This document shows, piece after piece, positions 18,029-51,612 of a DNA stretch of 64,000 bases. The number at the start of each line of letters is the position of its first letter. Within the stretch, counting starts at the first letter, position 1. Source of the DNA: Mariniflexile litorale (lineage in GTDB: Bacteria; Bacteroidota; Bacteroidia; Flavobacteriales; Flavobacteriaceae); contig NZ_CP155618.1 of NCBI RefSeq assembly GCF_031128465.2, forward strand, positions 2,117,501 through 2,181,500. The letters run 5' to 3'. Made by a program: the position numbers and the translations under genes. The notes beneath the pieces were generated by a model. It ran no database searches and was not told the DNA's origin. It saw nothing but the letters and a program-made list of their open reading frames with translations.

Positions 18029-18074
18029 TAAAAATAGAATTTGTTATAAAAAACTCTATCCTGTGGCATCCTGT
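18029..18074 (-). promoter_or_regulatory. ACAGGAT tandem-heptamer promoter of the PL22 unit
   Basis: On the minus strand two identical ACAGGAT heptamers (18074-18068 and 18064-18058) are spaced with a 10-bp period. They are followed after exactly 21 bp by TATTTTTA (18036-18029), a near-consensus TAnnTTTG -7 box. The start codon of PL22 is 57 bp further on. Five other promoters in the window share the layout. Confidence 0.75.
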
Positions 18075-18109
18075 AAAGTTTTAATGTTATGTTAAGAGTT
18101 TTTATCTAA

Positions 18110-19189
18110 TTATTTCCAAGCTAAAGAGCATTTTCCAATAGCATAAAAAGAGGTTTCATTAATTTTAGTTCTTGCTGTATAAACAATGGTAAAGCTACCA
18201 TTATCTTCTTCTATGACGCAAAGCGGAGTGCGCATGGAATGATCGCCTTCTTCAACCCAAATATTAGGCTTTTTTTGCACTTTTAGGCGAATTTCTTTGC
18301 TCCAATTGACACCATCTTCAGAGATACTGTAACCTATTTCGTGATCCCCTTTTGAGTCAAAAACGGTTAAATATCTACCATCCTTCATTTTGGTCACTTG
18401 AGGATTTTCCATAAAATTATCTACTATTTTAAGTGGATTTATACCTTCAGGCATTCTATGCCAAGGCCCGTTTAGTTTATTTGAGAATGCTAAACCAGAT
18501 GGCCAGGGGCCTAGAGGTGAATAATTGTGACCATCATAAAAAGCAAACCAAGTATTTCCAACTTTATATGGGTTAAATGTAGCCACAGCCTGTTGTCCTT
18601 CCCATTCTTGAGAATTTTCATCAGGTTGCATGATTACTTCCATGTCTGCATATGGGCCAGCAATACCTTCTTCACCTAAAATAACGGATTTAGCACGCCA
18701 TATTTTACCAGAATAATCGCTGCCTGGTAATTCTCCCTTTTCCTCATCACCTCCTCTGTAAGCTACATAGAATAAATTCCAAGCATTTTCTTCTTCATTA
18801 AATTCCACACCCGTAGCCCAAACTTCCGATAAAGGGTTGCTGTGAGACCTTCCAGGAATACTTTCTTTTATGGTTCCTTTTCTTTCCCAATTTATAGCAT
18901 CTTTACTAGTCCAATATGCAATGCGCATATCTCGGTGCGCGCGAATAAACATTTCGTTAACGAACATATGGTAAGTGCCATTTAATTTAACAACCTGCCC
19001 TGTTTCAAAACCAGAGAGATTTTTAGTCGCTAAAACATCGGGGTGATTATAGTTAACAACTGGTTTTTGATGATCTGATACAACATATAAACTTTGTGCA
19101 AAACAAGTTGAGGTTGTTGCAACGAAAATCATAAGATATAATGAAAAGGTTTTTGCAATTTTATTACTGTCTGTGAAAATTTTATGCAT
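18110..19189 (-). CDS. Secreted five-bladed beta-propeller glycosidase (GH43-superfamily-like)
   Basis: The 359-residue protein has a signal peptide (cut near CFAQ, ~32). Repeated blade motifs of the GH43/GH32/GH117-type propeller follow: GTYHMFVNE (~71-79), AYWTSKDAINWERKG (~91-105), NAWNLFYVAYRGG, NTWFAFYDGHN, and ENPQVTKMKDGRYLTVFDS (~261-279), where Glu261 is a candidate acid. I cannot assign it to a numbered family with confidence; a role in trimming pectin side chains follows only from context. It is 27 bp downstream of the GH28 gene, so the two are co-transcribed from the ACAGGAT promoter at 20605-20650. It is related in fold, not closely in sequence, to the protein at 59234. Confidence 0.75.
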   Translation of the reverse strand: MHKIFTDSNKIAKTFSLYLMIFVATTSTCFAQSLYVVSDHQKPVVNYNHPDVLATKNLSGFETGQVVKLNGTYHMFVNEMFIRAHRDMRIAYWTSKDAINWERKGTIKESIPGRSHSNPLSEVWATGVEFNEEENAWNLFYVAYRGGDEEKGELPGSDYSGKIWRAKSVILGEEGIAGPYADMEVIMQPDENSQEWEGQQAVATFNPYKVGNTWFAFYDGHNYSPLGPWPSGLAFSNKLNGPWHRMPEGINPLKIVDNFMENPQVTKMKDGRYLTVFDSKGDHEIGYSISEDGVNWSKEIRLKVQKKPNIWVEEGDHSMRTPLCVIEEDNGSFTIVYTARTKINETSFYAIGKCSLAWK

Positions 19190-19216
19190 TCGATTTATAT
19201 TTTATATTAATTCTTT

Positions 19217-20581
19217 TTATTTTTCTTCAAAGTTTAAAACATTCTCATGGATGTGTTTCTGATTGGTAATAGAATCGACCACTACATTGTTTAAGAAAAT
19301 ATTTTTTATAGGAAGCTCTTCTTGTCCAAAAATACGTGATAGATATTGAGTTTTGGTTGCTCTTATATTTTTTAAATAAACATCTGTAATAGGCGTTAAT
19401 TTTTTTTCTATCGTAGGAACTAAATCTCGCCATTGGTATAGCACATCGGTTTCAATACCCAGCACCCCATTTTCAATACTTCCAGCTGTTATGTTTTCAA
19501 CAAAAATATTTTTGACATAACCACCTCGGCGTTCGTTTGTTTTTATAAATACCAAATGAAACATTTTTGCTCCGTCAACCACATTACAGTTTTCAACAAA
19601 AACATTTTCAATACCACCAGATAACTCGCTACCTATGGCTAATAATTGGTGACCATTTTTCATAGTGCAATTTCGCATCACTATATTTTTTGATGGGGTA
19701 TTTAGTCTCCAAGCGTCTTGGTTTCTACCCGATTTTACTGCAATGGCATCGTCACCTTGGTCAAAAATACAATTCTCGATTAAGATATTTTGACTCATTT
19801 CTGGGTCTACACCATCATTGTTATGTCCGTGTGCTTTAACTTTAATATTGCGAATAACCACATCTTTTGAAAGGTAAGGGTGAATGGTCCAGAACGGACT
19901 GTTTTCAATAGAAACACCTTCAAGCAAAATATTTTTACTACGATTAAATTGTATAAAATGTGGACGGAAATTTGCAGTATCGTTAACCATCTGGCGTGCT
20001 TCTACTGGTTTGTTATAAGATGCTAAGTTATAAAGTCTTTTTAAGCTGTTCATGTGTGGTTTTGGGCGTGCAAACCATTTTTCCCATACATCCATTTTAG
20101 CTTTTAATTTACCTTCGCCTGTAATGGCAATATTTTCACATCCATAAGCATAAATTAGGGGTGAATAGTTGTAGCATTCCATACCTTCCCAAGTGGTGTG
20201 TACAGGAGGTAAGTAGTCGCTTGGCTTTTCAGAAAAAAGTAAGAGAGCTCCTTTATTTAAATGTAAATTAACGTTGCTTTTAAAATGAATTTTTTTTGTA
20301 AGCCATTCACCTTTGGGAATTATAACGATTCCACCTCCTATTTTATTTGCTTCAGTAATTGCGTTAGAAATGGCTTTGGATATGAGCTCTTTATCGCCTT
20401 GTATTGCTCCGAAATCTGTAATTAAAAATTGCTTACAGTTACTAAAGTCGGGAACTTTAATAGGAGGCATTTCAAATGGTGCATTTACTTTTATTTCGAT
20501 TATTTTAATCTTATTTTCTTCCTTTTTACATGAAAAAACAATTAAAATTAGAATAAGTAAGAATGATTTATTCCCTTTCAT
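19217..20581 (-). CDS. GH28 polygalacturonase-family lipoprotein
   Basis: This 454-residue right-handed beta-helix protein belongs to GH28, which hydrolyses alpha-galacturonosidic bonds in homogalacturonan or rhamnogalacturonan. A lipoprotein signal ends at VFSC (Cys18). Catalytic motifs are visible in order: NNDGVDP (Asp256, the NTD-type motif), QGDDAIAVKSG (Asp277/278), NGHQLLAIGSE (His311, the GHG-type motif) and the IKTNERRGG region that replaces the RIK motif. Many beta-helix coils (ILLEGVSIENSP, ILIENCIFDQG, IFVENITAGS) fill the rest. An exo-acting or rhamnogalacturonan-type GH28 is more likely than an endo-enzyme because of the long loops, but that is inference. It opens the minus-strand cluster and has an ACAGGAT promoter 23 bp upstream. 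Confidence 0.9.
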   Translation of the reverse strand: MKGNKSFLLILILIVFSCKKEENKIKIIEIKVNAPFEMPPIKVPDFSNCKQFLITDFGAIQGDKELISKAISNAITEANKIGGGIVIIPKGEWLTKKIHFKSNVNLHLNKGALLLFSEKPSDYLPPVHTTWEGMECYNYSPLIYAYGCENIAITGEGKLKAKMDVWEKWFARPKPHMNSLKRLYNLASYNKPVEARQMVNDTANFRPHFIQFNRSKNILLEGVSIENSPFWTIHPYLSKDVVIRNIKVKAHGHNNDGVDPEMSQNILIENCIFDQGDDAIAVKSGRNQDAWRLNTPSKNIVMRNCTMKNGHQLLAIGSELSGGIENVFVENCNVVDGAKMFHLVFIKTNERRGGYVKNIFVENITAGSIENGVLGIETDVLYQWRDLVPTIEKKLTPITDVYLKNIRATKTQYLSRIFGQEELPIKNIFLNNVVVDSITNQKHIHENVLNFEEK

Positions 20582-20604
20582 AGGTTAGTACTTTTAGTAT
20601 TTAG

Positions 20605-20650
20605 TAAAAATAGTATCTAACTTAATAAATGCTATCCTGTAGCATCCTGT
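20605..20650 (-). promoter_or_regulatory. ACAGGAT tandem-heptamer promoter of the GH28 unit
   Basis: On the minus strand ACAGGAT occurs at 20650-20644 and again at 20640-20634 (10-bp period). A 21-bp spacer then leads to TATTTTTA at 20612-20605. The GH28 start codon follows 23 bp later. The arrangement equals that of the PL22 promoter apart from spacer sequence. Confidence 0.78.
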
Positions 20651-20675
20651 TTGGATTTAATTATTCAATTTTTAA

Positions 20676-20873
20676 ACAACAACTTGGTTAAAAGCGAGGT
20701 GCCATAAAAAAATCTATCAGCAATTAGTTAGCTATGGGGCTCTGTATTTTCCTTTACAAGAAGAAGGTAAATGGAATCATCACATTTATAAATCATTAAA
20801 GATGATTCTCGATGAATATTTTGGACACGAGGTTGATTATAATAGAGAAAAACACCTTGTTTATTTAACTTGA
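20676..20873 (+). pseudogene. Possible coding remnant without a start codon
   Basis: A 65-codon open stretch runs in the plus direction between the ACAGGAT promoter and the sigma gene, overlapping the sigma 3' end by 13 bp. It is preceded by a stop at 20673 and has no good start. Its translation looks protein-like (for example KKIYQQLVSYGALYFPLQEE and DEYFGHEVDYNREKHLVYL), which suggests the 3' end of a lost gene. I do not recognise the family, and chance remains possible. Confidence 0.35.
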
Positions 20874-21454
20874 TTCATTTCTTTTTTAAAATCATAAAGC
20901 AAAAATAGAATAGCATCAATTTGAGGGTTTAATTTATCTGCGAGGACTTTAAATGCTCTGGTCATATGTCCTTCAACTGTTTTTATAGATATATTTAAAT
21001 ATTCAGATATTTCAATATGTGTTAAACCATCCTTTTTATTAAGTATAAAAATTTCTCTGCATTTTGGAGGCAAGTTCATAATTTCTTTATTTACCAACTG
21101 AGTTAATTCGTTCAAATCTTCATAATCATTTTCAACTACCAAATCAAGGGCTTCTAAATACTTCTTCTCTAAATAAATTACTGGCTTATTTTTTCTAAAT
21201 TGATCTATAAATTGGTTGTAAACTGATTTATAAACATAATTTTTAATAATAAAATGAGAATTAATATTTTTTTTATTCATCCATACTTTTACAAAAACAT
21301 TTTGAACAATATCTTCAGCTTTACCTTTATCATGAGTTAATGTAAAAGCATAGCGACATAAACTTTTATAATAGGTCTCCATTAAAAAATCGTAAGCTTT
21401 TGTATTGCCTAGTTTTAATTGTGTTGCTAATGTAAGGTTATTGTTGAAATCCAA
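20861..21454 (-). CDS. ECF-type RNA polymerase sigma factor
   Basis: The protein has sigma region 2 (AYDFLMETYYKSLCRYAFTLT, then KAEDIVQNVFVKVW) and region 4 (LPPKCREIFILNKKDGLTHIEISEYLNISIKTVEGHM), the two parts of a Bacteroidota RpoE-like factor. Such factors are released when a SusC with an STN domain signals through FecR, and they then activate the SusCD operon. The start is unclear: the open frame extends to a TTG at 21508, an in-frame TTG lies at 21454 (used here), and the natural-looking ATG at 21474 is one frame off, across a run of eight A. One extra A would give an N-terminus beginning MKNRKKKLDFNNN. It is transcribed divergently from FecR, unlike the usual sigma-then-FecR order. 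Confidence 0.85.
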   Translation of the reverse strand: MDFNNNLTLATQLKLGNTKAYDFLMETYYKSLCRYAFTLTHDKGKAEDIVQNVFVKVWMNKKNINSHFIIKNYVYKSVYNQFIDQFRKNKPVIYLEKKYLEALDLVVENDYEDLNELTQLVNKEIMNLPPKCREIFILNKKDGLTHIEISEYLNISIKTVEGHMTRAFKVLADKLNPQIDAILFLLYDFKKEMNQVK

Positions 21455-21562
21455 TTTTTTTTGCGATTTTTCATTAAATGTGCAAACAAATCTAAAAAAA
21501 AATATCAAATAAATAGAGGGGTAAGAAAAATTAGTGCGTAATTAATAATAGAAACATGTGAA

Positions 21563-22726
21563 ATGAAGAAGTCTAAAGCACGTAAAATAATAGTTAAATT
21601 CCTTAATAAGGAAGCTGCGTCACATGAATTGGATAAATTAAATAAGTGGTTAAAAAACAAAAAAAACCAAACTGACTTTAACCATTTTGTAAAGGCAGAA
21701 TATTTAACGATAGCTTGTATGAGTGATTATGATTTGCAAGAAGCAAAAAAAAATATATACAGAAAACTTAAAAAAGTTGAGAAAACACGTAGAATAGTCA
21801 TTTATAAAAAGATTGCTGTTGCAGCTTCTTTTACGCTGTTATTTACATTGGGTTTAATACAAATTAATAAAAAAGAAAAAGGTATTATACAAACTGAAAC
21901 CATAGAAATTGGTTCTAGCAAAGCCATTCTTACCCTAGAAAATGGTAACCAAGTTAGTCTTGAAAAAGGAAAATTATATGCCAATGAAAAAGTGAATAGT
22001 AATGGAGAAGAACTCTTATACATTGCATCTGTAGGATCTCAAACTAAAGATAACAACGAGGAGCCTTCGTACAATTACTTAGCTATTCCTAGAGGAGGAA
22101 AGTTTTTTATTAAGCTTGTAGATGGTACAAAAGTATGGTTGAATTCTGAATCTAAAATAAAATATCCAACAAGATTTATTAAAGGTGAAACACGTATGGT
22201 TGAATTGTTATATGGTGAAGCTTATTTTGAAGTATCACCAAGTACAAAACATAATGGAGATGCATTTAAAGTAATCACTAAAAATCAAGAAGTTAATGTA
22301 TTAGGTACAGAATTTAATATAAAAGCCTATAGCGACGAAGATGAAATTGCTACAACCTTAGTAAATGGTAGTGTTGAAATTAATAATGGAAAGGTGAAAA
22401 AGACTATAAAACCTAATCAACAGTCTGTACTAAATAGCAAAAACCCTAGTTTAATAAAAATAGTAGAAATAGACGCAGCACAAGAAACCTCTTGGGTTAA
22501 AGATGTTTTTTCTTTTAATGAAGAAACCTTAGGAGAAATGATGCAGGTTTTATCTCGGTGGTATAATGTTGATGTTGTTTTTGAAACAGCAGAACGAAAA
22601 AATTATGTGTTTACGGGAGTCTTAGAACGTACCAAATCTATTCATGATATTTTAAAACTTATAGAAGGTACGAGTGAAGAGGATATAAAATTTGAAATTA
22701 ACCAAAAAATAATTATAGTAAAATAA
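21563..22726 (+). CDS. FecR-like anti-sigma factor
   Basis: The 387-residue inner-membrane protein has a cytoplasmic N-terminal region (~1-75) that should bind the sigma factor. It has one transmembrane helix (~83-100, IAVAASFTLLFTLGLIQ), a periplasmic FecR domain (~110-270, with AIPRGGKFFIKLVDGTKVWLN and YGEAYFEVSP) and a C-terminal DUF4974 domain (~318-387) that meets the STN domain of the transporter. It is divergent from the ECF sigma gene and 93 bp upstream of the STN-bearing SusC gene, making a complete sigma/anti-sigma/transducer set. Identity is secure; which sugar triggers it is unknown. Confidence 0.93.
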   Translation: MKKSKARKIIVKFLNKEAASHELDKLNKWLKNKKNQTDFNHFVKAEYLTIACMSDYDLQEAKKNIYRKLKKVEKTRRIVIYKKIAVAASFTLLFTLGLIQINKKEKGIIQTETIEIGSSKAILTLENGNQVSLEKGKLYANEKVNSNGEELLYIASVGSQTKDNNEEPSYNYLAIPRGGKFFIKLVDGTKVWLNSESKIKYPTRFIKGETRMVELLYGEAYFEVSPSTKHNGDAFKVITKNQEVNVLGTEFNIKAYSDEDEIATTLVNGSVEINNGKVKKTIKPNQQSVLNSKNPSLIKIVEIDAAQETSWVKDVFSFNEETLGEMMQVLSRWYNVDVVFETAERKNYVFTGVLERTKSIHDILKLIEGTSEEDIKFEINQKIIIVK

Positions 22727-22819
22727 AAAAGGAAAAGGCTACACGTTCGAAGGTAATAGCCTTATTCCAAGTCGATTAATCAATTAAAACCAAGTTTAAC
22801 TAAAAACCAAGACAAAATT

Positions 22820-26317: not shown

Positions 26318-26367
26318 TTAACAATACATTATATCAAGCATAATGCATAACATTTAAAATTATAAAA

Positions 26368-28464: not shown

Positions 28465-28488
28465 AAGTAAGTTTTTTTGATTATTCAT

Positions 28489-28521
28489 AACGCTATAGTA
28501 AATTTTACTATAGCGTTTTTT
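28489..28521 (+). terminator. Strong terminator after the ECF-linked SusCD pair
   Basis: Arms 28489-28502 and 28504-28517 are exact 14-nt reverse complements, and the stem runs into a T-tract (28516-28521). It separates the ECF-controlled SusCD transcript from the ACAGGAT-controlled sulfatase unit. Confidence 0.88.
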
Positions 28522-28537
28522 ATGTCATAAAAGAGGT

Positions 28538-28583
28538 ACAGTATAGTACAGGACACAAATAAAAATTTAAACCAATATCTTTG
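28538..28583 (+). promoter_or_regulatory. ACAGGAT-type promoter of the sulfatase unit
   Basis: Heptamers ACAGTAT (28538-28544) and ACAGGAC (28548-28554) have the 10-bp period. After 21 bp comes TATCTTTG (28576-28583), an exact match to TAnnTTTG. The sulfatase start codon is 40 bp downstream. Confidence 0.75.
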
Positions 28584-28623
28584 AGATTATACCAAATATG
28601 ACCTTATTCAAAAATAATTTTAA

Positions 28624-30006
28624 ATGAAGTTTTTAAAGTATGTTTTTTGCGTTTATATAATTAGTATTCTAAGTGCTTGTAAAAACTTAGAAAATAAAAC
28701 AGCTACGTTGCAACAAGGTGTCAATGTTTTAATAATCATCGCCGATGACGCTGGTTGGAATGATGTAGGCTACAATGGCTCTGAAATCAATACTCCCAAT
28801 ATTGATTGGTTAGCAAATAACGGAGTGCAACTTAATAGGTTTTATGCAAACCCAACGTGTTCACCTTCTCGTGTATCATTGTTAACAGGTATGCCTGCTA
28901 GTAGAATTGGTATTGTTGCCCCAATTAGCGGTAAAAGCAAAAAAACATTGCCAGATTCAATAACAACCTTACCTCAGGCATTAAAAAAACACAATTATGA
29001 AAATGCTCTAATAGGTAAATGGCATTTAGGGTTAGATATCGCAAACGGACCTAATGCATTCGGTTTTGATTATTCTTATGGTTTTTTACATGGGCAAATA
29101 GATCAATATACGCATGTGTACAAAAATGGTGATAAAAGCTGGTATAGAAATGATGCTTTTATAGAGGAGGAAGGACATGCTACGGATTTAATTACAAATG
29201 AAGCCATTAACTGGTTAACTAAAAAGCGAGACACAACCAAAAATTTTTATCTCCAACTTGCCTATAGTGCTCCCCATTATCCATTACAAGAGGAAGAGAA
29301 ATGGAAGGCACCATATTTAAAGAGTATTGAAAATGATTCTCGCAGAGATTATGCAGCGGCCATGTCTCACTTAGATGAAGCTATTGGAAACGTTATGGAA
29401 GCGCTAAAACAATCAAAACTTGATGAAAATACTTTAGTTATATTTTTAAGTGACAATGGAGCGCAAAAAGAATGGTATCCAACCAAAGAATATGATTTAA
29501 AGCATGGTCCAAATCCTGTATTAGGAAGTAACAAGCCTTTACGAGATTTTAAAAAATCTAATTATGAAGGGGCTATTCGCGTACCAGCTATAATGTACTG
29601 GAAAAATCAATTAACATCACAAATAAATACTAACTATATATCTGTTACTGATATTATGCCTACGATTCTTTCTCTTGCTGGGTCAGAAATCTCTAAGGAC
29701 GTAGAGGGTGTCAATATTTGGCCTTCTGTTTTAGATGGTAATGTGGCGACGAATCATGATATATATGTTCGAGGACATATACAAGAAAGCATTATTCACC
29801 AACCATGGAAGTTGGTTAGACAACGAAATAATAAAAATCAACCAACCATTTATCAGCTATTTAATATAGATTCAGACCCTGAAGAAAAGAATAATGTTAG
29901 AGATAAACACCCTGCCGTTTTAGCCGAAATGAAGTTGTTAATTGAAGCGCAATTTGCAAAAGATGATAAACAGGTAAATGCAGGATTCAACCAAGGAGAG
30001 TATTAA
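28624..30006 (+). CDS. FGly-dependent sulfatase (family S1) lipoprotein
   Basis: The 460-residue protein removes sulfate esters from carbohydrates. A lipoprotein signal ends at SAC (Cys19). Metal-binding Asp41-Asp42 lie in IADDAGWNDVGY. The activation motif CSPSR (Cys79, Arg83) carries the cysteine to be converted to formylglycine. GKWHLG (Lys132, His134), PHYP (His218) and FLSDNGA (Asp277, Asn278) complete the S1 active site. The overall pattern is like arylsulfatase-B-type enzymes, but I cannot give the S1 subfamily. No maturation enzyme is in the window. It leads an operon with RhaM, GH2, GH35 and GH115, implying that part of the substrate is sulfated and contains rhamnose and glucuronate; that is inference. 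Confidence 0.93.
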   Translation: MKFLKYVFCVYIISILSACKNLENKTATLQQGVNVLIIIADDAGWNDVGYNGSEINTPNIDWLANNGVQLNRFYANPTCSPSRVSLLTGMPASRIGIVAPISGKSKKTLPDSITTLPQALKKHNYENALIGKWHLGLDIANGPNAFGFDYSYGFLHGQIDQYTHVYKNGDKSWYRNDAFIEEEGHATDLITNEAINWLTKKRDTTKNFYLQLAYSAPHYPLQEEEKWKAPYLKSIENDSRRDYAAAMSHLDEAIGNVMEALKQSKLDENTLVIFLSDNGAQKEWYPTKEYDLKHGPNPVLGSNKPLRDFKKSNYEGAIRVPAIMYWKNQLTSQINTNYISVTDIMPTILSLAGSEISKDVEGVNIWPSVLDGNVATNHDIYVRGHIQESIIHQPWKLVRQRNNKNQPTIYQLFNIDSDPEEKNNVRDKHPAVLAEMKLLIEAQFAKDDKQVNAGFNQGEY

Positions 30007-38579: not shown

Positions 38580-38581
38580 TT

Positions 38582-40377: not shown

Positions 40378-40422
40378 AGCTTGATCCCAATGAAGTTTTA
40401 TTATTTAAGATTATAAAAATAA

Positions 40423-40450
40423 AAAAATGGAGGTAATTACCTCCATTTTT
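40423..40450 (-). terminator. Terminator of the SusC/SusD unit at 40472-45565
   Basis: The 28 nt at 40423-40450 are an exact palindrome with a GGAGG/CCTCC core and A/T tracts at both ends. It lies 22 bp past the SusD stop codon. Confidence 0.85.
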
Positions 40451-40471
40451 ATTAACATTTATTAAAACCGA

Positions 40472-42439: not shown

Positions 42440-42469
42440 AATTTTTATTCTTTTTAAATTTATCATGTC

Positions 42470-45400
42470 TTAAAATTCTACATTCATTCCAAACACAAAG
42501 CCTCTGTTAGATACAGAGCTTCTTACATCTAAGTCAATCCAATCAACTTTAGAAAACAGCATACCAGGGTTCGTTGCTTGAGCATAAAAACGCAGTTTAG
42601 AAATACCCAAACTGCTTGTAACACTTTCAGGAAGATTATAACCTAAAGAAATATTTCTAATTTTCACAAAAGAACCGCTTCTATAACCAAGTGTAGCAAA
42701 AAAAGGATCGCCATTACCAGCTGAATATATTGGCTTTTGGTATTCAGAATTTTTATTGTTTTCGGTATAGTAATTTACAGCTCTAGAATTGTATCTCCCA
42801 ACTAAACCTTCGCCATTTGTATTATAGGTATAACCTAGACGACCATACATGAATATCGATAATTCAAAATCTTTATACGAAAATGTATTTGTTAAACCCA
42901 CAATAAATTTAGGAATTTCACTACCTATAATAACACGGTCGTTATTTGCATCAAGTTCATAATCTCCATTTTGATCTACAGGACGTGCATTTCCTGCTGT
43001 AAAATTTGTGCCATTTGCATTAAATTTGTCCATTTCAGCTTGATCTGATTCTTTCCAAATACCATTTGATTCATACCCGTATATAATCTTTTGGGATTCT
43101 CCAATGAACCATTCATTATTGATATCATCTTCTTTACCGTTAGCTAACGAAACGATTTCATTATCTTGGTATGATCCACTAAAATCTGTAGACCATCTAA
43201 AATTGTCATTTTGAACATTAATAGTATTTAAAGTTAAATCTAAACCTCTAGATTTAGTTTCTCCAATGTTAGCGTATGTTGCATCATAACCATTAATTGG
43301 TAGTATACTTTTTAGAAGTAATAAATCGGTTGTTTTAGAGAGATAGGCATCTAGACCACCAGATAGTCTTCCTTTAAATAATGAAAAATCTAATCCTATG
43401 TTGTATTGGGTCGTTTTTTCCCAGCCTAATTCTTTATTTGCAAAAAGGGTGTAATTTTCATCATCTATTTCTACTAAATTAGCTTGTATGCCGGCAATAG
43501 AAGTGCTTCCAATGGCGTAAAACAAAGGAGATACTCCACCTTTCGTCGCATAAGGATCAATGGCAGAGTTACCAGTAACACCAACTCCTAAACGCAATTT
43601 TAATTGATTAATCCAATCAGAACCTGATAAAAAGTCTTCTTTATCAATACGCCACCCTATTGCAGCACTTGGGAAAAATGCCCATTTATTGCCCTCAGCT
43701 AATTGAGATGCACCATCATAACGACCTGATAAAGTTACCAAGTACTTATTATCAAAGCCATAATTTAAACGGCCCATATATGATAACAATTGTCTCTCAC
43801 TTATATCAGAATCATATCCTGAAAGAGAAACATTTGCACTACTTAAAGCATTCCATTTTTGGCTTGAAAAAGGAATGTTATTTGCATTCATAGAACTCGA
43901 CTCTTCTTTAAATTGTGTTTGACTTTGTAGTAAGGTTACACCAAAATCGTGTTTTTCTAAAGTTTTATTGTAGTATAATAAATTATCTAAAGTATATGAT
44001 AATCTTTGTCTTTTTTCTAAAGAGGCATAGCTAGAACCAGTTCTAATTACAGACTTTCCATCAATATATATACCATCTCTATAAGTTTCAATATCAGGAC
44101 CAAAATTTGTACGTAATTTCAATCCTTCTAAAGCGGGCGAAAAAGCACCGAAATCAAGCTGAGCATAGAAACTACCGAATGCACGTAAAGTTACACGTTG
44201 ATCTTGAGAGTATTTTTCTTCGTCAATAATTGTTTTTACCGCATTATCTCCTCCTGGATTTTCTACTCTATTTCCTGCATCATCATAAGGAAGTGTATAT
44301 TGAAAAATACCTCTAGCACTTTCATATAAACCATCTCGAGCAGATACTGCTACGTTACCTTCTTCAGATTGACCATATTCTTGAATAGCATAAGACGTAT
44401 TAAGATTTCCTCCAAAAGAAAACCATTCGGTAGGCGTAATATCAATACTTAAATTTCCATTATATCTCTTAAACTTTTGACCTAATATTACACCTTTGTT
44501 ATCCGTGTATCCAAAAGATCCATAGGCTTTCATTTTTTCTGTACCACCACTAGCACTTAACGTATGTTGTGTTGTAATACCTGTTCTGGTAACAAAGTCT
44601 GTCCAATCTGTATCGGTAACTTTAGAGCCATCCCAATTTCCACCAACCCAACCTTGGAGTATATTGTTAAAAGCAGTATCATCTCCTGTAAAAATAGCAG
44701 CATCATTAGCTTGAGTCGGCTCATCTCCTCTTGGGAAAGTAGCTGTGTTCGAATAATATTTAGCCCAACGACGATACTCTATAAAGTCGGCTCCACTAAA
44801 ATTAGGGGCAGACTCATGAATATTTTCACTTGTTATAGATGTATTATAACTTAATGTGTATTTCCCACTTTTTCCTCTTTTGGTTGTAATAATAACAACA
44901 CCATTTGCACCTCTAGAACCATAAATAGCAGTTGCTGATGCATCTTTAAGGATATCTATTGATTCAATATCTTGAGGGTTTACATTTTGTATACCCCCAG
45001 TAATTAGCGGAATTCCATCTAATACATAAAGCGGGGAATTTGAAGCAGATAATGAACGTACACCGCGTATAGTAATACTTCCTAGCTGTCCAGGTCTTTC
45101 ATTTGAAGTGATATCAACACCAGCAGCTTTACCTTGTATAGCCTCAATGGCATTGTTAACAGGTCTAGAAGTAATGTCTTCAGCACTTACGCTTACCAAT
45201 GCTCCAGTTACATCTGATTTCTTTTGAGTTCCATAACCTACTACTACAACTTCGTCTAATTGTGAAGCGTCTTCTTGCAAAACAATATTATAGCTAGATT
45301 TTGAATCTACTGTGATTTCGGTTGTTTTCATACCCACAAAAGAAAATACTAAAATTTCGCCTACTTTAGCAGTGATGGTGAAATTACCATCAAAATCTGA

Positions 45401-45565
45401 TTGTGCTCCTCGCGTTGTGTTCTTTACCAAAACATTTACCCCTGGTAAAGGAAGATTATTGGTGTCTTGAATGTTTCCATTTATAGCTTTTTCTTGGGCA
45501 TTGGATGCAAACCCAGAAAAAATAAAGGAAACAATAATTAAATAATTGCATAGAAATTGTTTCAT
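42470..45565 (-). CDS. SusC-like TonB-dependent transporter without STN domain
   Basis: The 1031-residue outer-membrane protein has a signal peptide (~1-23), a carboxypeptidase-regulatory-like domain (~27-100, PLPGVNVLV and QSDFDGNFTI), the DEVVVVGYG segment (~104-112), a plug (~115-235) and a barrel. From the regulatory domain onward it parallels the STN-bearing SusC at 22820 (for example SDVTGALVSVSAED against SDVTGAVSSVSAEE, and both with ASATAIYGSRGANGV). It lacks the STN domain, so regulation must come from DNA-binding regulators. Its 500-bp upstream region carries three CG-centred LacI-type sites and one ACAGGAT pair. Substrate is likely an acetylated pectin-type oligosaccharide, judging by the CE12 and GH2 genes directly upstream. 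Confidence 0.95.
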   Translation of the reverse strand: MKQFLCNYLIIVSFIFSGFASNAQEKAINGNIQDTNNLPLPGVNVLVKNTTRGAQSDFDGNFTITAKVGEILVFSFVGMKTTEITVDSKSSYNIVLQEDASQLDEVVVVGYGTQKKSDVTGALVSVSAEDITSRPVNNAIEAIQGKAAGVDITSNERPGQLGSITIRGVRSLSASNSPLYVLDGIPLITGGIQNVNPQDIESIDILKDASATAIYGSRGANGVVIITTKRGKSGKYTLSYNTSITSENIHESAPNFSGADFIEYRRWAKYYSNTATFPRGDEPTQANDAAIFTGDDTAFNNILQGWVGGNWDGSKVTDTDWTDFVTRTGITTQHTLSASGGTEKMKAYGSFGYTDNKGVILGQKFKRYNGNLSIDITPTEWFSFGGNLNTSYAIQEYGQSEEGNVAVSARDGLYESARGIFQYTLPYDDAGNRVENPGGDNAVKTIIDEEKYSQDQRVTLRAFGSFYAQLDFGAFSPALEGLKLRTNFGPDIETYRDGIYIDGKSVIRTGSSYASLEKRQRLSYTLDNLLYYNKTLEKHDFGVTLLQSQTQFKEESSSMNANNIPFSSQKWNALSSANVSLSGYDSDISERQLLSYMGRLNYGFDNKYLVTLSGRYDGASQLAEGNKWAFFPSAAIGWRIDKEDFLSGSDWINQLKLRLGVGVTGNSAIDPYATKGGVSPLFYAIGSTSIAGIQANLVEIDDENYTLFANKELGWEKTTQYNIGLDFSLFKGRLSGGLDAYLSKTTDLLLLKSILPINGYDATYANIGETKSRGLDLTLNTINVQNDNFRWSTDFSGSYQDNEIVSLANGKEDDINNEWFIGESQKIIYGYESNGIWKESDQAEMDKFNANGTNFTAGNARPVDQNGDYELDANNDRVIIGSEIPKFIVGLTNTFSYKDFELSIFMYGRLGYTYNTNGEGLVGRYNSRAVNYYTENNKNSEYQKPIYSAGNGDPFFATLGYRSGSFVKIRNISLGYNLPESVTSSLGISKLRFYAQATNPGMLFSKVDWIDLDVRSSVSNRGFVFGMNVEF

Positions 45566-45662
45566 AAAAATTGTTTAGTTTTTGTTAATAAATTTGTTTA
45601 GTCGGTTAAGTTTAGTTAATTCAGAAATTGTTAAACCAGTCTTATCTATTTTAATAATAAAT

Positions 45663-45674
45663 GCAATCGGTTGC
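45663..45674. promoter_or_regulatory. CG-centred LacI-type half-palindromic site (variant)
   Basis: GCAATCGGTTGC matches the AATCGATT-type operators with the central TCGA changed to TCGG, so the outer arms (GCAA/TTGC) still pair. It is about 98 bp upstream of the SusC start codon. Confidence 0.45.
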
Positions 45675-45787
45675 TTTTTTTAAAGTGAAAATTGCTTTTT
45701 GTTAGTCAATTATGTTTTTTAGTGGTTTAAACTTAATTAACTCAGATTAGATATTAGTTTTTTCCTCAAACCACATTTAATATTTAT

Positions 45788-45819
45788 AAAATACAATCGA
45801 TTGTATTTTTGTAAATATA
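45788..45819 (-). promoter_or_regulatory. Perfect 22-bp CG-centred palindrome with adjacent -7-like box
   Basis: Positions 45788-45809 are an exact palindrome with core ACAATCGATTGT, the strongest LacI-type operator candidate in the window. On the minus strand it begins 2 bp after TATATTTA (45819-45812), a near-consensus -7 box. The same box-then-operator order is seen at 3877-3900. Confidence 0.65.
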
Positions 45820-45865
45820 AGGTTATTCTTTTTATTATTAGATAAATTACTTAAACTTAATGACG

Positions 45866-45911
45866 TAAATTACACGTTAATTTTTTGTTAAACCATCCTG
45901 TACTTACCTGT
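45866..45911 (-). promoter_or_regulatory. ACAGGAT-type element of the third SusC promoter region
   Basis: On the minus strand ACAGGTA (45911-45905) and ACAGGAT (45901-45895) have the 10-bp period. At the 21-bp spacing the sequence is GTAATTTA (45873-45866), a weaker -7 match than at the other five sites. The distance to the SusC start codon is 300 bp. Confidence 0.6.
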
Positions 45912-45927
45912 TTTTTTACAAAAAAAG

Positions 45928-45939
45928 ACAATCGGTTGT
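45928..45939. promoter_or_regulatory. CG-centred LacI-type site (variant)
   Basis: ACAATCGGTTGT resembles the palindrome at 45788-45809 with one central change and complementary outer arms. It lies 16 bp upstream (minus strand) of the ACAGGTA heptamer. Confidence 0.45.
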
Positions 45940-46065
45940 TTTTGTAGAATAATGTTACTTAATTTTTTTGGTATAGAATCAATTAGTCAAAAGCTTTTGG
46001 ATTTAGTATTAAGCAAGGATTTAAATTCCAAACTATTGCAATCTCATGGAAATAACTTAAAGTTT

Positions 46066-48933
46066 TTAATTATCTCTAAAATCAAACCATAAAGTCATTG
46101 GAATACCATCGTCACCATTTTTAATACGTATGTTGGTTGGTTGACTTTCTGGTCCTTGGTGTTCTAAAGGTTTGAAGGCACGCATGGCTGGTATTTCATA
46201 CATAAAAGATATGTTACCCTCTGGGAATTCGGGTTGCGGATGTGTGCCCTCAAAAGCGTTTTTAGGTAAATCGGGTGTAAATAGTCTTAAAAATAGTTTG
46301 TCATTTTCGCTAAAAAATTTAATATCACCTTTTTCTGTTTTAAGATTGGCGCCTATTAAGTTTGCATGATAACCTTTAAACTCTGGATAGATTAAATTCT
46401 CAAAACTTTCACCCGTTATGGTGTTGTTATAGTCTTTCTCCCAAAGACCAAATGTGGTGCCTTTTATTCTGTTTTTCCAAACATGATAAGGACCATTACC
46501 AAACCATTTTATGCTTTTTACGCCTTCTTCTGGATAATCAAAGGTGATTCCTAGTTTACTAATTTTATCTTCAAAAGCAGATCCATCAAAACCATCATTT
46601 CTACCTGCATCTTTTAATATAACCATTTCCATTTTTAGTCTGCCATCGTTAAATAACGTCCATTTTATAGAATGAATACCACCGAAATAGTTAAAAAAAC
46701 ATACGGCACCATCTATGTTTTGTTCTATGGAAACGTTTTCTATTTTGGCTTTCATACCAATAGGTTTTGGTCCATTGATAAAAGGTACATGACCTTGATT
46801 GTTTTCAATACTTGTAATTTCACCCGTTGTAGTATTAAAATTAACCCGTAACTTTTCGCTAGATAAAAGAATATTGTCTTTTGATTTAGTAGCGGTAGTA
46901 TTTTTTGTTGAAGTTTCTTTAGCTAATAGCTTGTCGGCAAAGTAGGGAGCACGGTGAATTGGCCATGACCAAGTATAAATTTCTCTACCATGTTTGTCGT
47001 TTGCAATAATTTCCAACCAATCGCCTTCAAAAAAGTTGGTAGGTATTCCGAATTGAATTTTCCTAGTTTCACCAGGTTCAATATTCTCAATACGAATGGT
47101 GTTTGAATCAATAACTTCAGTTTTGTCGTTAGTATAAAGAATATTGTTTGCTGCTTTTAAAACGCGATATTCTAATTTACATTCATTTAAATTGGTATAG
47201 ATGTATTCGTTTTTAATGAAAAAAGAGCCATCAAATTTTGATGTTACAAGTTTTGGTTCAAATTGAATGGGCGACCATACTTCTTTTACTGTAAAGAAAC
47301 TACCTTCTTTTTCTCGATGAGGTCCTAACACGCCATCGGCTGCAAGTGATCCTTTTGAGTCGTATTTTTGTTCACCTGTCCAATCGGTTCGTAAAACAGC
47401 TTCATCTAGCATAGCCCAAATAAAGCCTCCGGCAAAAAGCGGACTTTCTTTATAACGTTTCCAAAAATCTTCTAACCCAGCACCAATACCATTATCGTAA
47501 GTACCGTGCATAAATTCGGTTGGAAAAAAAACATTTTCACCATTATTAAAACGATGCATGCCTGTTAAATAAGTAGGATAATGGTGTACGTCCCAACCAT
47601 CAAAATCTGCCCAAGGATGAATAACAATTCGTTTTTGCGGGTCGTATTCATGAAAAACATGGTCTATGTCGTAATTCCAGCCACCTTCATTACCATGATC
47701 CCAAATAATTACCGAGGGATGGTTAACATCACGTTGAACGGTTTCTTTAATTAATTTGGTACCTGTTTTTGTATCATAGCCGTTTTGCCAACCAGCAAGT
47801 TCATTTAAAACAAAAAGACCTAAAGAATCGCAAGCTTCAAGAAAATGAGTGTCGGGCGGATAATGAAAACGCACCGCATTCATATTCATGTCTTTTAATA
47901 AATTAACATCTAAATCACTAATAACTTTATCGGTACTTCTACCTGATTCGGGCCAAATACTATGCCTGTTGATGCCTTTCATGATGATTTTTTTACCATT
48001 CACATAAATACCATCTTTTTTAAGAAATTCTAAAGTTCTAAAACCGATTTTGGTTTTTGAAGTATGCAGGGTTTTACCATCTTTTTTAAGCGATAAATGA
48101 AGCCTATACATATTAGGTGATTCTGGATCCCAGGTTTTTATATGGTTCCATTTTGCCTTGATGGTTTGAACACCCGTTTTAGCATTTGCAGGAATTGTAA
48201 CTGTTTCAAATGTTTCATTACTTCCAATAGGTGTGATACTGGCTTCTATTTTACTGTTTTTAGGAATATTAACAAGTTCTAAATCTGCAGTAAATGAACC
48301 ATCCATTTTAGCGTCAACGGCAACATGTTTTATATATGATTTAGGAGAAACTTCTAACCAAACCGGACGGTAGATACCACCAAATAACCACCAGTCGGTT
48401 TTTCGTTCCGCATTATTAACTGTATTGTTGCTTGAGTGTTTAGATACATGCGCTTCTAAAAGATTTTCTGTACCGTAATTTACTAAGGAGGTGATGTCGA
48501 ATTTAAACTCATAAAATCCACCTTGATGCGTTTCTCCGACCGATTTACCATTTATTTTTACATCAGTATCAGTCATGGCACCTCCAAAAACAAGGGTGAT
48601 GTTTTGTCCTTTATAACTTGCAGGAATATGGAATTTGTATTTATAAAACCCTTCCTCTTTACTTGGTTCTTTTTGGTTTAATTCTTTATACCATCTGCCA
48701 TAAGTATATTCTCCAAAGCCTTCTAATTCCCAGTTGGAAGGCACATTTATGGTGCTCCATTTTTTGCTGTTGTTACCATCGGTACACATAAATTCCCATG
48801 CAACAGGGTTTTTAAAATCTTTACCAGATAAGTATATTTTTTGAGTTTCTTGTGCAGAAATGCTTAAAGAAATAAGAAAAGCAAAAGCTAAAAATGCATT
48901 AAGTTTATTTAGGTATGTAATTCCGTGTATCAT
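46066..48933 (-). CDS. GH2-family beta-galactosidase-like enzyme
   Basis: The 955-residue secreted protein (signal cut near SISAQ, ~28) has the LacZ-like domain order. A jelly roll (~40-195, GFYKYKFHIP and DWWLFGGIYRPVWLEV) is followed by an Ig domain (~200-298) and a TIM barrel (~300-600) with KGINRHSIWPESGR, acid/base Glu416 in DHGNEGGW and nucleophile Glu473 in FPTEFMHG. A second Ig domain and a C-terminal beta-galactosidase small-chain-like domain (~695-955) complete it. The missing Asp in DHGNEGG, compared with the usual SLGNE, points to a substrate other than lactose; beta-galactose or beta-galacturonate/glucuronate on pectin is plausible. It sits 6 bp downstream of the CE12 esterase gene, so the two are one transcript from the promoter at 50259-50294. 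Confidence 0.88.
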   Translation of the reverse strand: MIHGITYLNKLNAFLAFAFLISLSISAQETQKIYLSGKDFKNPVAWEFMCTDGNNSKKWSTINVPSNWELEGFGEYTYGRWYKELNQKEPSKEEGFYKYKFHIPASYKGQNITLVFGGAMTDTDVKINGKSVGETHQGGFYEFKFDITSLVNYGTENLLEAHVSKHSSNNTVNNAERKTDWWLFGGIYRPVWLEVSPKSYIKHVAVDAKMDGSFTADLELVNIPKNSKIEASITPIGSNETFETVTIPANAKTGVQTIKAKWNHIKTWDPESPNMYRLHLSLKKDGKTLHTSKTKIGFRTLEFLKKDGIYVNGKKIIMKGINRHSIWPESGRSTDKVISDLDVNLLKDMNMNAVRFHYPPDTHFLEACDSLGLFVLNELAGWQNGYDTKTGTKLIKETVQRDVNHPSVIIWDHGNEGGWNYDIDHVFHEYDPQKRIVIHPWADFDGWDVHHYPTYLTGMHRFNNGENVFFPTEFMHGTYDNGIGAGLEDFWKRYKESPLFAGGFIWAMLDEAVLRTDWTGEQKYDSKGSLAADGVLGPHREKEGSFFTVKEVWSPIQFEPKLVTSKFDGSFFIKNEYIYTNLNECKLEYRVLKAANNILYTNDKTEVIDSNTIRIENIEPGETRKIQFGIPTNFFEGDWLEIIANDKHGREIYTWSWPIHRAPYFADKLLAKETSTKNTTATKSKDNILLSSEKLRVNFNTTTGEITSIENNQGHVPFINGPKPIGMKAKIENVSIEQNIDGAVCFFNYFGGIHSIKWTLFNDGRLKMEMVILKDAGRNDGFDGSAFEDKISKLGITFDYPEEGVKSIKWFGNGPYHVWKNRIKGTTFGLWEKDYNNTITGESFENLIYPEFKGYHANLIGANLKTEKGDIKFFSENDKLFLRLFTPDLPKNAFEGTHPQPEFPEGNISFMYEIPAMRAFKPLEHQGPESQPTNIRIKNGDDGIPMTLWFDFRDN

Positions 48934-48939
48934 AATTTT

Positions 48940-50244
48940 TTAGTTACCGTCTGGTTTACTGTTTTCAAATCTTGTGCTCATTGGTAAAGTCCAATCGCTA
49001 AAATTGTCGGGTTTTTTAGGATTGTAGTTTGGTAAATTAGGTTTTAAGTATTGAGCAATATCTAATTTTAAATCTTTAATACTTTGCACAACGCCTTTAG
49101 CAATTTCATTAGCGCCAAAACTGTTAAAGTGTGTATTGTCTTCTAGTTTTTCTGCCTGCCCAGGAAATGTGTTAGCAGGGTATTGTACAAATGCATTTCT
49201 TGAACCGTCATTTCCCCAACTTTCATACATATATGTGGTCATTTCTGTAATGTCAATGAGTGGTACTTGTAAATCTATTGCGACTTTTCGCATAGCATCC
49301 GGGAAATCGCCATGTGTTGGCTTTAAGGTGCCATCGTTGTTAAAAGCTCTGCGTTGAGTTGGTGTTACTAATACAGGAGAGCCTCCTTTTTCTCTAAATT
49401 TTGTAATGAATTCTTTTAGAGAGTTTGTGTATAATCCCCAAGCACCATTGCCTTCTCCTTTTATTTTTTCATCATTATGTCCAAATTCTATAAATACATA
49501 ATCGTTTGGCTTCATAAAGGTTAATATTTTATCCAATCGTTTGGTTCCTTTAAATGAACTTAATGTGGCACCCGATTCTGCATAGTTTGCTACAACAATA
49601 TCTGAATTAAAATAATTGGTAATAAATTGTCCCCAAGAGGCCCATGGCTCTAAATCTTGGTCGGTTACGGTAGAATCACCTGCTAAAAACAAGGTTTTAA
49701 CGTTTGAAACAGGGCTGATTTTTACACTTTGAATAACAGGCGTTCCGGAAAATTCCAAAGTTAATTTATCATCCCAATTTAATTGGTTTTTGTCACGGTC
49801 TTTAACTTTAATATATTCGGTAGTATTAATTTTAGGAGACCTAATATTTACGGTAAAGGATTGTTGCGTGGTATTGTTTTTATCTAAAGTTATTTCTTTT
49901 AGCATTAATCTTCTAGATTCTGCTTTTATAGTAGTTGTAGAACATTTTTTACCTCCTAAAACCACATTTATTTTATAATTCCCTTCGGGAAGTTTTACCG
50001 AGAAATAGATACTTTGTTTACTTGTGATGAAGTTTTTTTTGAATTTTATGTTTTGTCCAGATTGAAAATCGAAACCATAACCTAAAGCATCATTATATAA
50101 TATGGGGTTATTTATGTAAGTGGTATTCTTTTCGTTTGTATTAATTCCAAAATTGAAACTTTGACTAAGGTTGTTTTGTGCGGTAGTATTAAATAGAAAA
50201 ACAATGTGTAAAAGCAGGAAAAAAATGTGTTTTAAGGGAATCAT
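48940..50244 (-). CDS. CE12-like rhamnogalacturonan acetylesterase with N-terminal beta domain
   Basis: This 434-residue secreted esterase has a signal peptide (~1-22), a beta-sandwich of carbohydrate-binding character (~28-170, FNFGINTNEK and PEGNYKINVVLGG) and an SGNH hydrolase domain (~183-410). Catalytic residues are Ser191 in LAGDSTVTDQ, Gly in AESGATLSSF, Asn257 in EFGHNDEK, and Asp369/His372 in EDNTHFNSFGA. CE12 enzymes remove acetyl esters from the galacturonate of rhamnogalacturonan, giving lyases and hydrolases access. It is distinct from the tandem esterase at 38582 in having one catalytic domain and the extra N-terminal module. Its promoter is an ACAGGAT element with the -7 box 14 bp from the start codon, and GH2 follows 6 bp downstream. 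Confidence 0.9.
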   Translation of the reverse strand: MIPLKHIFFLLLHIVFLFNTTAQNNLSQSFNFGINTNEKNTTYINNPILYNDALGYGFDFQSGQNIKFKKNFITSKQSIYFSVKLPEGNYKINVVLGGKKCSTTTIKAESRRLMLKEITLDKNNTTQQSFTVNIRSPKINTTEYIKVKDRDKNQLNWDDKLTLEFSGTPVIQSVKISPVSNVKTLFLAGDSTVTDQDLEPWASWGQFITNYFNSDIVVANYAESGATLSSFKGTKRLDKILTFMKPNDYVFIEFGHNDEKIKGEGNGAWGLYTNSLKEFITKFREKGGSPVLVTPTQRRAFNNDGTLKPTHGDFPDAMRKVAIDLQVPLIDITEMTTYMYESWGNDGSRNAFVQYPANTFPGQAEKLEDNTHFNSFGANEIAKGVVQSIKDLKLDIAQYLKPNLPNYNPKKPDNFSDWTLPMSTRFENSKPDGN

Positions 50245-50258
50245 TCATAAATTTTTTA

Positions 50259-50304
50259 CTAAAATATCCTTTTAAAAAAAACAAACCATCCTGTACTATG
50301 ATGA
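50259..50304 (-). promoter_or_regulatory. ACAGGAT-type promoter of the CE12-GH2 unit
   Basis: On the minus strand a degenerate heptamer TCATCAT (50304-50298) precedes ACAGGAT (50294-50288) with the 10-bp period. A 21-bp spacer leads to TATTTTAG (50266-50259). The start codon follows 14 bp later. Confidence 0.7.
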
Positions 50305-50335
50305 ATCTTTAAATATTTGTTCAAAAAAATATATT

Positions 50336-51382
50336 TTAAACTGAATTACGCTTTATATACTCAAAAACATTCTTAATTTTTTCTTTTTTATTATTTAAAA
50401 CTAGATCGGAAGCAGTTTCACCCATGGCTTTAAAATGGGTACTTACTACGTTTATACCTAACAAATCCTTTAAAGGTGTATCGTTATAAGAAATGATACC
50501 AATATCTTTTCCGAGTATTAAGTTTTTTGTGCGAACTTGTCTTACTAAATTAACCAAGTCATTTTCTTCTATAATAACATAAACATCTCTACTTTCAAGA
50601 TCCATGTCATCATATATTTGTTCCAAAATTTCAAAGTCAAAATTATATTTTGAACAGAATTTTCTAAAGCCATGAACAATTCTTAAAGGATAAGGATAAA
50701 CAGATTTTGAAGGATATACTAAAACTAACTTGTCATATTTTTTTAATTTTTCCAAGCCTATTTTTAAAGCATCATATATATCTTCTTGAAAGTCTTGATA
50801 TACAGAGCCATAATTCCCTTTAATATCTAATTTATTGTTGTCTAAGATGATAAGTTTATCTTTAGGAATTTTTTCAATCATTTTTTCTACCACATGAGTG
50901 GTACTTGTATGATTTAAATCGTCTGTTTTAAAATGGGGCATTATCACATAATAATCAAAAGCCCCAAGACTTTTTTCTAAAGTTCTAGTGAAAAGAGATT
51001 CTTCGCAGTGATAAACAGATAAGGTTACATGACCATTAACACCAATACTATTTACAAATGAGTTGTAAATCATCATTTTATAAGAGCTAAGTTTGTTAAT
51101 CATAAAAAAGATATTGATTTTAGAAATCAAATCTGTCTTAGCAGTGTAATAGCCTTTGCCTTTAACCGATACAATTACTTTTTGCTCTTTAAGTTGTTTG
51201 TATGCTTTTTCAACAGTGTCTCTGGAAAGGTAGCAAGATTCGCTTAGTTCATTTATTGACGGGATTTTTTCACCAATTTTTAATTTCCCTTTCGAAATAT
51301 CATTAATAATAGAATCTACAATTTGCTTGTATTTTGGAATACGAGAAGATTCATTAATTTTTATTTCTATTAATTGAGACAT
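50336..51382 (-). CDS. GntR-family regulator with LacI-like sensor domain
   Basis: The 348-residue protein has an N-terminal GntR winged-helix domain (~8-78; PKYKQIVDSIINDISKGKLKIGEKIPS region, then YLSRDTVEKAYKQLKEQKVI). A periplasmic-binding-protein-like effector domain follows (~90-340), as in AraR-type regulators. Proteins of this layout often repress sugar-catabolic genes and respond to the free sugar. It lies between two ACAGGAT promoters, 91 bp downstream of the CE12 start and divergent from the GH28 gene at 51635. It may regulate a sugar released here, such as rhamnose, arabinose or galactose, but no palindromic site is obvious. It is an alternative candidate for binding the ACAGGAT elements, though direct repeats are unusual for GntR dimers. 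Confidence 0.9.
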   Translation of the reverse strand: MSQLIEIKINESSRIPKYKQIVDSIINDISKGKLKIGEKIPSINELSESCYLSRDTVEKAYKQLKEQKVIVSVKGKGYYTAKTDLISKINIFFMINKLSSYKMMIYNSFVNSIGVNGHVTLSVYHCEESLFTRTLEKSLGAFDYYVIMPHFKTDDLNHTSTTHVVEKMIEKIPKDKLIILDNNKLDIKGNYGSVYQDFQEDIYDALKIGLEKLKKYDKLVLVYPSKSVYPYPLRIVHGFRKFCSKYNFDFEILEQIYDDMDLESRDVYVIIEENDLVNLVRQVRTKNLILGKDIGIISYNDTPLKDLLGINVVSTHFKAMGETASDLVLNNKKEKIKNVFEYIKRNSV

Positions 51383-51566
51383 AAAATTGAAATCTTATAG
51401 CTGTTTATTTAATGTTTAGTTAGCAAAATTAGCATAATATTATAAGTGAGGCATTAATCATATCAATTTTTAAAAGCAAAGGAGCCTATTAATCTAGTTG
51501 TTTTATGATTTTTAACTAAATATTAAGAAATAATGCATTGTGTAAATCTTTATTTAAATAGAAACT

Positions 51567-51612
51567 TCATGTATGTACAGGATACATTCCCCTTTTCTTT
51601 ATTATAAATTTA
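51567..51612 (+). promoter_or_regulatory. ACAGGAT-type promoter of the GH28-DUF4861-GH105 unit
   Basis: A degenerate heptamer TCATGTA (51567-51573) precedes ACAGGAT (51577-51583) with the 10-bp period. After 21 bp comes TAAATTTA (51605-51612). This placement argues for the ATG at 51635 as start of the downstream gene, because the TTG at 51623 would leave almost no leader. Confidence 0.72.

Follow-up and report, generated by a model that had tools for sequence, protein, structure and literature searches.

A GntR/LacI-type protein as the probable L-rhamnose-responsive activator of direct-repeat promoters at rhamnogalacturonan genes of Mariniflexile litorale

Introduction

AraR of Bacillus subtilis joins a GntR-type winged helix to a LacI/GalR-type sugar domain, and it controls a sugar pathway together with polysaccharide enzymes. 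To our knowledge, the regulators of pectin and algal-glycan use in Flavobacteriaceae are largely unassigned. Here we analysed one window of the Mariniflexile litorale genome, a 64,000-nucleotide stretch of contig NZ_CP155618.1 (positions 2,117,501 to 2,181,500 of the forward strand), in which six promoters share an ACAGGAT direct repeat. The gene of one GntR-family protein, at 50336-51382(-), is placed between two of these promoters, the sites at 50259 and 51567. This protein is likely an L-rhamnose-responsive activator that operates these six promoters as well as at least four others in the genome.

Several described systems resemble parts of this one. In Bacteroides, rhamnose control is assigned to the AraC-type RhaR (PMC3878776, PMC3870299), the motif of which has a 21-bp period (PMC3870299). 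RhaR and the DeoR/LacI-type rhamnose regulators do the same job, L-rhamnose catabolism, with protein families unrelated to the present one. The MocR-type GntR activators GabR, PdxR and TauR have the winged helix on direct repeats in common with it, often divergent from the activated gene (PMC4494728, PMC5320631); NanR, FarR and NagQ also share the GntR winged helix and a direct-repeat operator, and their effector domains differ (PMC4494728). At the level of titles and abstract openings, with subscription papers and supplements outside the search, no description of this GntR rhamnose system was found for Flavobacteria or Bacteroidetes. Among the matches listed for ACAGGAT in Bacteroidetes, none concerned regulation by its title.

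Results

The six promoters were confirmed on both strands, and the distance from the heptamer to the -7 box is 21 bp in 6/6 (Table 1). The sequence-only reading had placed a second ACAGG copy 10 bp upstream in four of them; the position held in all four, but the exact ACAGG was present in only three, the site at 28538 having ACAGTAT. The TCAT-type upstream copies that it had described at 50259 and 51567 are there, and the -7 box fits TAnnTTTG with at most one departure in five of the six promoters, the exception being 45866 (GTAATTTA) with three. Close counterparts of both degenerate copies occur in the same-genus genome G001 (locus L119), ACATCAT at site 5 and the same copy at site 6, which suggests that the two sites flanking the regulator gene are weaker by tuning.

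The window contains 19 copies of ACAGGAT, where 6.6 would be expected. When the window was scanned with a matrix of 37 sites from relatives, own genome excluded, exactly the six sites scored above 8 (38.0, 37.2, 32.8, 24.9, 22.0 and 20.0); the best of 200 dinucleotide shuffles reached 18.8, below the weakest real site. A genome-wide scan had been named beforehand as a check. In the single contig of 4.52 Mb, the two-box pattern ACAGG-N5-ACAGGAT-N21-TAnnTTTG with at most two mismatches gave seven matches, and the reversed pattern gave none. All seven are intergenic by an open reading frame (ORF) test; six adjoin rhamnose or pectin genes, and one precedes a symporter unit of acetate type. The window contains three of the seven; its sites at 45866, 50259 and 51567 fall below that cut, so that the known sites total ten. 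With a single heptamer and at most one mismatch, 27 matches were obtained, against seven with the reversed pattern. Nine of them are known sites, all intergenic, and the other 18 comprise 16 within ORFs and two intergenic ones (1342612 and 2426566); since 16 of the 18 extra matches fall within ORFs, the single-box pattern is not specific. The shuffles and reversed-pattern controls bear out the earlier view that the fixed 21-bp pattern is hard to get by chance.

The motif was then followed in other genomes. Among 99 relatives, 49 matches were found in 16 genomes (reversed control, 1), and among 397 genomes of the family, 237 matches in 83 (reversed control, 2). The first relatives' matrix used 44 of the 49 matches, omitting G049:C1:121897, G031, G079, G035:C2:94248 and the duplicate G007:C29, and its repeat part was drawn from sites chosen with 21-bp spacing. 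Homologues of the GntR-type gene of the window were found beside motif sites at the relatives' loci. Orthologues are set off from paralogues in the 99 relatives by a gap in identity, at least 52% versus at most 44%. Fourteen relatives possess the orthologue, and the motif is present in 14/14; only two of the other 85 have it, with one match each. In the family set (orthologue at 50% identity or more), the motif occurs in 73/79 genomes with the orthologue versus 10/318 without, the matches numbering 227 and 10, the latter one per genome. The Fisher p of this co-occurrence is 6e-61, which is not to be taken at face value because the genomes are related. The six orthologue genomes missing the strict pattern all showed on inspection a scoring site before rhaD (G119, 22.0; G216, 16.4; G233, 26.6; G299, 25.9; G390, 17.2; G340, 34.2). 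The rhaD gene is present in 94/397 genomes, including 78/79 with the orthologue; in the genomes having rhaD but no orthologue the motif is found in 0/16, and the rhamnose pathway alone is therefore no explanation for it. Motif and orthologue are found together in 73/397 genomes, about a fifth of the family set.

These distributions bear on the regulator that the sequence-only reading had favoured, an AraC-type protein or hybrid two-component system (HTCS) encoded outside the window. Loci of this kind are commonly regulated by an HTCS, and the gene of one with 1437 aa adjoins the rhamnose operon of the own genome. However, in a comparison that took in the top five candidates of each genome, copies at least 53% identical to it were found in G005 and G019, both motif-free, and none at that level in the motif-bearing G002, G035, G049, G050, G054, G055 and G063. 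This HTCS was rejected as the binder by its genome distribution, the other HTCS genes of the genome not being tested. The 10-bp repeat, which had been taken as an AraC-type signature, does not support such a protein either, since known HTCS motifs consist of two 12-16 bp sites with a 21-bp period (PMC3878776). An HTCS is thus a very improbable binder, and the regulator of the six promoters is very probably the GntR/LacI-type protein at 50336-51382(-), inside the window.

The protein has a Pfam GntR match (E 1e-13). Among 48 aligned homologues, PF00392 is listed in 48/48 and Peripla_BP_3 in 42/48, the latter not being listed for the window protein itself; no DeoR domain is among the Pfam listings, which comprise GntR, Peripla_BP_3 and other helix-turn-helix models. 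Its structure model (pLDDT 91.6, pTM 0.74) contains a winged helix and a two-lobed domain, and the fold matches LacI, RbsR, CcpA and ribose-binding protein. Because the fold has no membrane segments, it would be a one-component regulator.

The consensus of 97 aligned sites is RCAGKAYAG-T-ACAGGATRG. Between the repeats and the -7 box (columns 20-38) nothing exceeds 0.15 bits, and upstream of the repeats no element exceeds 0.2 bits, one position reaching 0.18. The column similarity of a direct repeat at shift 10 is 0.75; the palindromic reading was rejected, as its best centre gives 0.54. The LacI protein at 2630-3670 was set aside as a binder, since LacI proteins bind palindromes. In ordinary Bacteroidota housekeeping promoters, a -33 TTTG box lies 19-21 bp upstream of the -7 box. 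The TAnnTTTG box of such promoters is present at the sites, and the -33 box was not found; columns 14-19 read GGATRS, so that the operator sits where it is expected. With the -7 box placed at -12 to -5 (PMC9723704), the operator extends from about -50 to about -32.

Spacing was analysed in 66 loci that had been fetched for the regulator gene and not for the motif; these 66, rather than all orthologue rows, were used. The rhaD gene is present in 49 of them, and in 48 the regulator is divergent and less than 5 kb from it, mostly 40-330 bp apart. With a fixed-spacing matrix, 48/49 rhaD promoters score 16 or more, and from the end of the -7 box to the rhaD start codon there are 18-46 bp in 46 of the 48; the remaining two have 72 and 83 bp. 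Including four loci that had been retrieved for the motif or the operon brings the count to 52/53 rhaD promoters with a site. When sites were located by the repeats alone, 90 were found, versus 0 in reversed sequence and two in 14 paralogue loci; the best -7 box lies at exactly 21 bp in 83/90, and in 44/49 when only the rhaD promoters were searched. In 80 further loci from public genomes, 40/44 of L219-L261 and L268 have a site. We give hardly any weight to a DeoR-family rhamnose regulator as the protein on these repeats: such regulators elsewhere do use direct repeats of 10-11 bp period (PMC3870299), but the gene recurring beside rhaD is GntR, with a helix type that covaries with the core (the genomes were not searched for DeoR proteins).

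Near rhaD, two loci (L217 and L218, of G354 and G159) have a second, weaker direct repeat of CAGTAT/CAGTAC core and 21-bp spacing before another dehydrogenase-like gene. Two tandem regulator copies lie near the rhamnose operon in L070, L172, L177 and L178, and G007 has four copies genome-wide.

Divergent regulators beside rhaD (38-43% identity) split by their recognition helix. L189 and L190 keep the helix SRDT-VEK/IEK, and their core is CAGGAT or CAGGAA. In L192, L193, L195, L199 and L203 the helix reads SRDT-[IV]V[RK] and the core CAGAAC (CATAAC in L203), still 21 bp from the -7 box; L301, from another family, combines V58 with two CAGAA sites. In the inspection of the divergent loci, rhaD could not be read in L201, and contig ends truncate L205 and L213. 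At rhaD promoters with a site, column 15 is G (CAGGA) with E58 in 51/51 and A (CAGAA) with V58 in 3/3, the sites having been picked with a matrix favouring G; further V58-type cases are L199 and L301 (CAGAA) and L203 (CATAA). As several residues differ between the helix groups, E58 is a marker and not a proven contact. Class-wide homologues at 30 loci yielded eight intergenic candidates versus three in reversed sequence, to which the intergenic filter was not applied; outside Flavobacteriales, the operator is therefore mostly not identified, with L301 as the clear exception.

Beyond the window, the genome-wide matches lie mostly beside rhamnose or pectin genes (Table 1), which supports the earlier grouping of the GH28, PL22, sulfatase, CE12 and SusC units into one regulon. 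In the operon at 2905287, the RhaD aldolase/dehydrogenase passes the TIGR02632 cut-off, whereas the rhamnose-isomerase-type gene scores under its own; another gene is kinase-like, as judged from its sequence alone.

Table 1. Promoter sites, proposed regulator and predicted targets (window positions, except the outside-window sites, which are genome positions)
Feature	Coordinates	Strand	Description
Site 1	18029..18074	-	ACAGGAT-N3-ACAGGAT-N21-TATTTTTA; 57 bp 5' of PL22-like gene 16712-17971(-)
Site 2	20605..20650	-	ACAGGAT-N3-ACAGGAT-N21-TATTTTTA; 23 bp 5' of GH28 gene 19217-20581(-)
Site 3	28538..28583	+	ACAGTAT-N3-ACAGGAC-N21-TATCTTTG; 40 bp 5' of sulfatase gene 28624-30006(+)
Site 4	45866..45911	-	ACAGGTA-N3-ACAGGAT-N21-GTAATTTA, weak -7; 300 bp 5' of SusC gene 42470-45565(-)
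Site 5	50259..50304	-	TCATCAT-N3-ACAGGAT-N21-TATTTTAG; 14 bp 5' of GDSL/CE12-type gene 48940-50244(-)
Site 6	51567..51612	+	TCATGTA-N3-ACAGGAT-N21-TAAATTTA; 22 bp 5' of ATG at 51635, GH28 gene listed as 51623-53113(+)
Proposed regulator, 348 aa	50336..51382	-	GntR-type winged helix (residues 17-79) and LacI/ribose-binding-protein-type sugar domain
Predicted target, oligogalacturonate lyase-like PL22	16712..17971	-	Pfam PF14583
Alpha-L-rhamnosidase GH106	13937..16660	-	Probably same operon as PL22-like gene; Pfam PF17132; NF049897 1016 bits, below cut-off 1300
Predicted target, GH28	19217..20581	-	
Predicted target, sulfatase	28624..30006	+	
Predicted target, SusC-type TonB receptor	42470..45565	-	
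Predicted target, GDSL esterase (CE12-type)	48940..50244	-	Then GH2 46066-48933, BT4156-like, below cut-off
Predicted target, GH28	51623..53113	+	Then DUF4861, GH88/105-type and further genes
Outside-window site	152831		Precedes SusC/SusD pair behind two GH78-type rhamnosidases
Outside-window site	2289937		Precedes MFS transporter, rhamnosidase-like gene and BT4156-like galactosidase (below its cut-off)
Outside-window site	2905287		Precedes L-rhamnose operon
Outside-window site, full two-box	4349694 (L038 14694-14739)		317 bp before VC_2705-type symporter and AcsA

In two SusC genes (window 45566-45865; L035 7877-8166), a leader of about 290-300 bp separates the -7 box from the start codon, whereas the leaders of the other five window targets measure 14-57 bp. 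An Rfam search of the window gave no match. At 20861-22726, an ECF sigma factor gene (-) and a FecR-like gene (+; judged from its translation) adjoin a SusC gene; the site at 20605 adjoins the sigma factor gene, yet it is oriented toward GH28. One 506-aa protein encoded at 38582-40102 resembles two tandem GDSL/CE12-type esterase domains, as read from its sequence.

Discussion

In the mechanism that we favour, the winged helices of the GntR-type protein would bind head to tail on the two 9-10 bp repeats, which lie 10 bp apart on one helix face. The bound protein would replace the missing -33 box at the fixed 21 bp from the -7 box and would recruit RNA polymerase as a class II-type activator; contact with the polymerase from -50 to -32 is suggested by the fixed distance, the lack of a -33 box and the same distance with a different core. 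The LacI-like domain would bind L-rhamnose or a close derivative, because the rhamnose operon is the commonest neighbour. As a result, L-rhamnose catabolism, rhamnosidases, and the uptake and degradation of rhamnogalacturonan I and pectin would be switched on.

Several points weigh against this explanation. AraR, which has this architecture too, acts as a repressor at palindromic operators. The repeats show some 5-bp periodicity, with a similarity of 0.64 at shift 5. One main-class rhaD promoter, that of L185, has no site, and a site is found in only 6/11 loci whose regulator has V58. The V-type loci L194 and L196 lack one up to about 220 bp from rhaD; L299, L300 and L302, also V-type, have no candidate in the short stretch covered, which holds no rhaD promoter. 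In the public-genome loci L262-L267 and L269-L298, mostly of Chryseobacterium and Epilithonimonas, only 4/36 have a site, rhaD lying outside the fetched flank in all 36. Palindromes are the usual operators of GntR proteins, many of which act as repressors (PMC4494728 and, in part, general knowledge).

The symporter/AcsA site at 4349694 is out of place in a regulon for rhamnose only; the link may be acetate set free from acetylated pectin, or the site may have arisen by chance. The same site would suit a global carbon regulator, Crp-like as BT4338/Cur, binding the repeats. However, the motif is absent from 308/318 family genomes without the GntR orthologue, and the candidate was rejected because the published BT4338 consensus is the palindrome wwwTATGTTnTAnAACATAwww (PMC6989115); such a binder is highly improbable.

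The GntR protein might also act on the same operator as a repressor, sitting at -50 to -32 and released by rhamnose, as AraR is by arabinose. The site overlaps the promoter, and repressors are known both in AraR and in many other members of the family (PMC4494728 and, in part, general knowledge). A repressor, however, needs no fixed distance, and the 21 bp to the -7 box are kept in 83/90 sites and also with the CAGAAC core; moreover, promoters without a -33 box should be weak lacking an activator. We consider repression unlikely, and positive control, which had been proposed from the sequence, is the likelier mode.

If the activator reading is right, a large fraction of Flavobacteriaceae gains a named regulator of the rhamnose/rhamnogalacturonan regulon, and a GntR/LacI hybrid seemingly serves as an activator that is fixed in position and binds a direct repeat. 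The set of protein-DNA covariation makes the recognition code of the protein testable; in addition, the promoters are simple ones that should respond to rhamnose.

Twenty loci of GntR/LacI paralogues were also scanned (L103-L118 and L135-L138), several of which are beside galK/galT-like genes. Without a control, ACTAGTAGG-T-ACTAGTAGG-like 10-bp repeats were seen in 9/20 (L107-L110, L112, L115, L116, L135 and L138, of which L112 and L138 are one place); they occur in either orientation and, again without a control, 19-21 bp before a -7-like box in several. Because ACTAGT is itself palindromic, the repeat type is ambiguous. L136, in the own genome (1183400-1203300), holds a third GntR/LacI paralogue of 33% identity, which adjoins an FGGY-kinase-like gene and a 441-aa gene resembling xylose genes (from the translations). 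It is a tentative idea, with slightly less than even chances in our view, that Bacteroidota paralogues of AraR architecture are one-component sugar activators whose 10-bp repeats stand in for the -33 box and keep a nearly constant spacing to the -7 box; the core would then name the sugar (rhamnose, galactose, perhaps xylose) and be readable from the recognition helix.

Comparison with known systems

The system proposed here differs from each of its closest counterparts. Different from AraR, it has a 10-bp direct repeat instead of a palindrome, a fixed distance to the -7 box, and rhamnose instead of arabinose genes; the sequence match to AraR is confined to the helix domain and is weak in the sugar domain. 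Compared with RhaR and the DeoR/LacI-type rhamnose regulators, its regulon also holds rhamnogalacturonan degradation genes. The MocR group has an aminotransferase-like, PLP-dependent sensor and other or mixed repeats (PMC4494728, PMC5320631), and PMC4494728, as far as it was consulted, says nothing of a fixed promoter position for NanR, FarR and NagQ. The HTCS_Rgu regulons of Bacteroides thetaiotaomicron serve the same substrate, rhamnogalacturonan; they are controlled by AraC-type membrane sensors with repeats about 21 bp apart (PMC3878776), whereas the regulator proposed here is a one-component protein.

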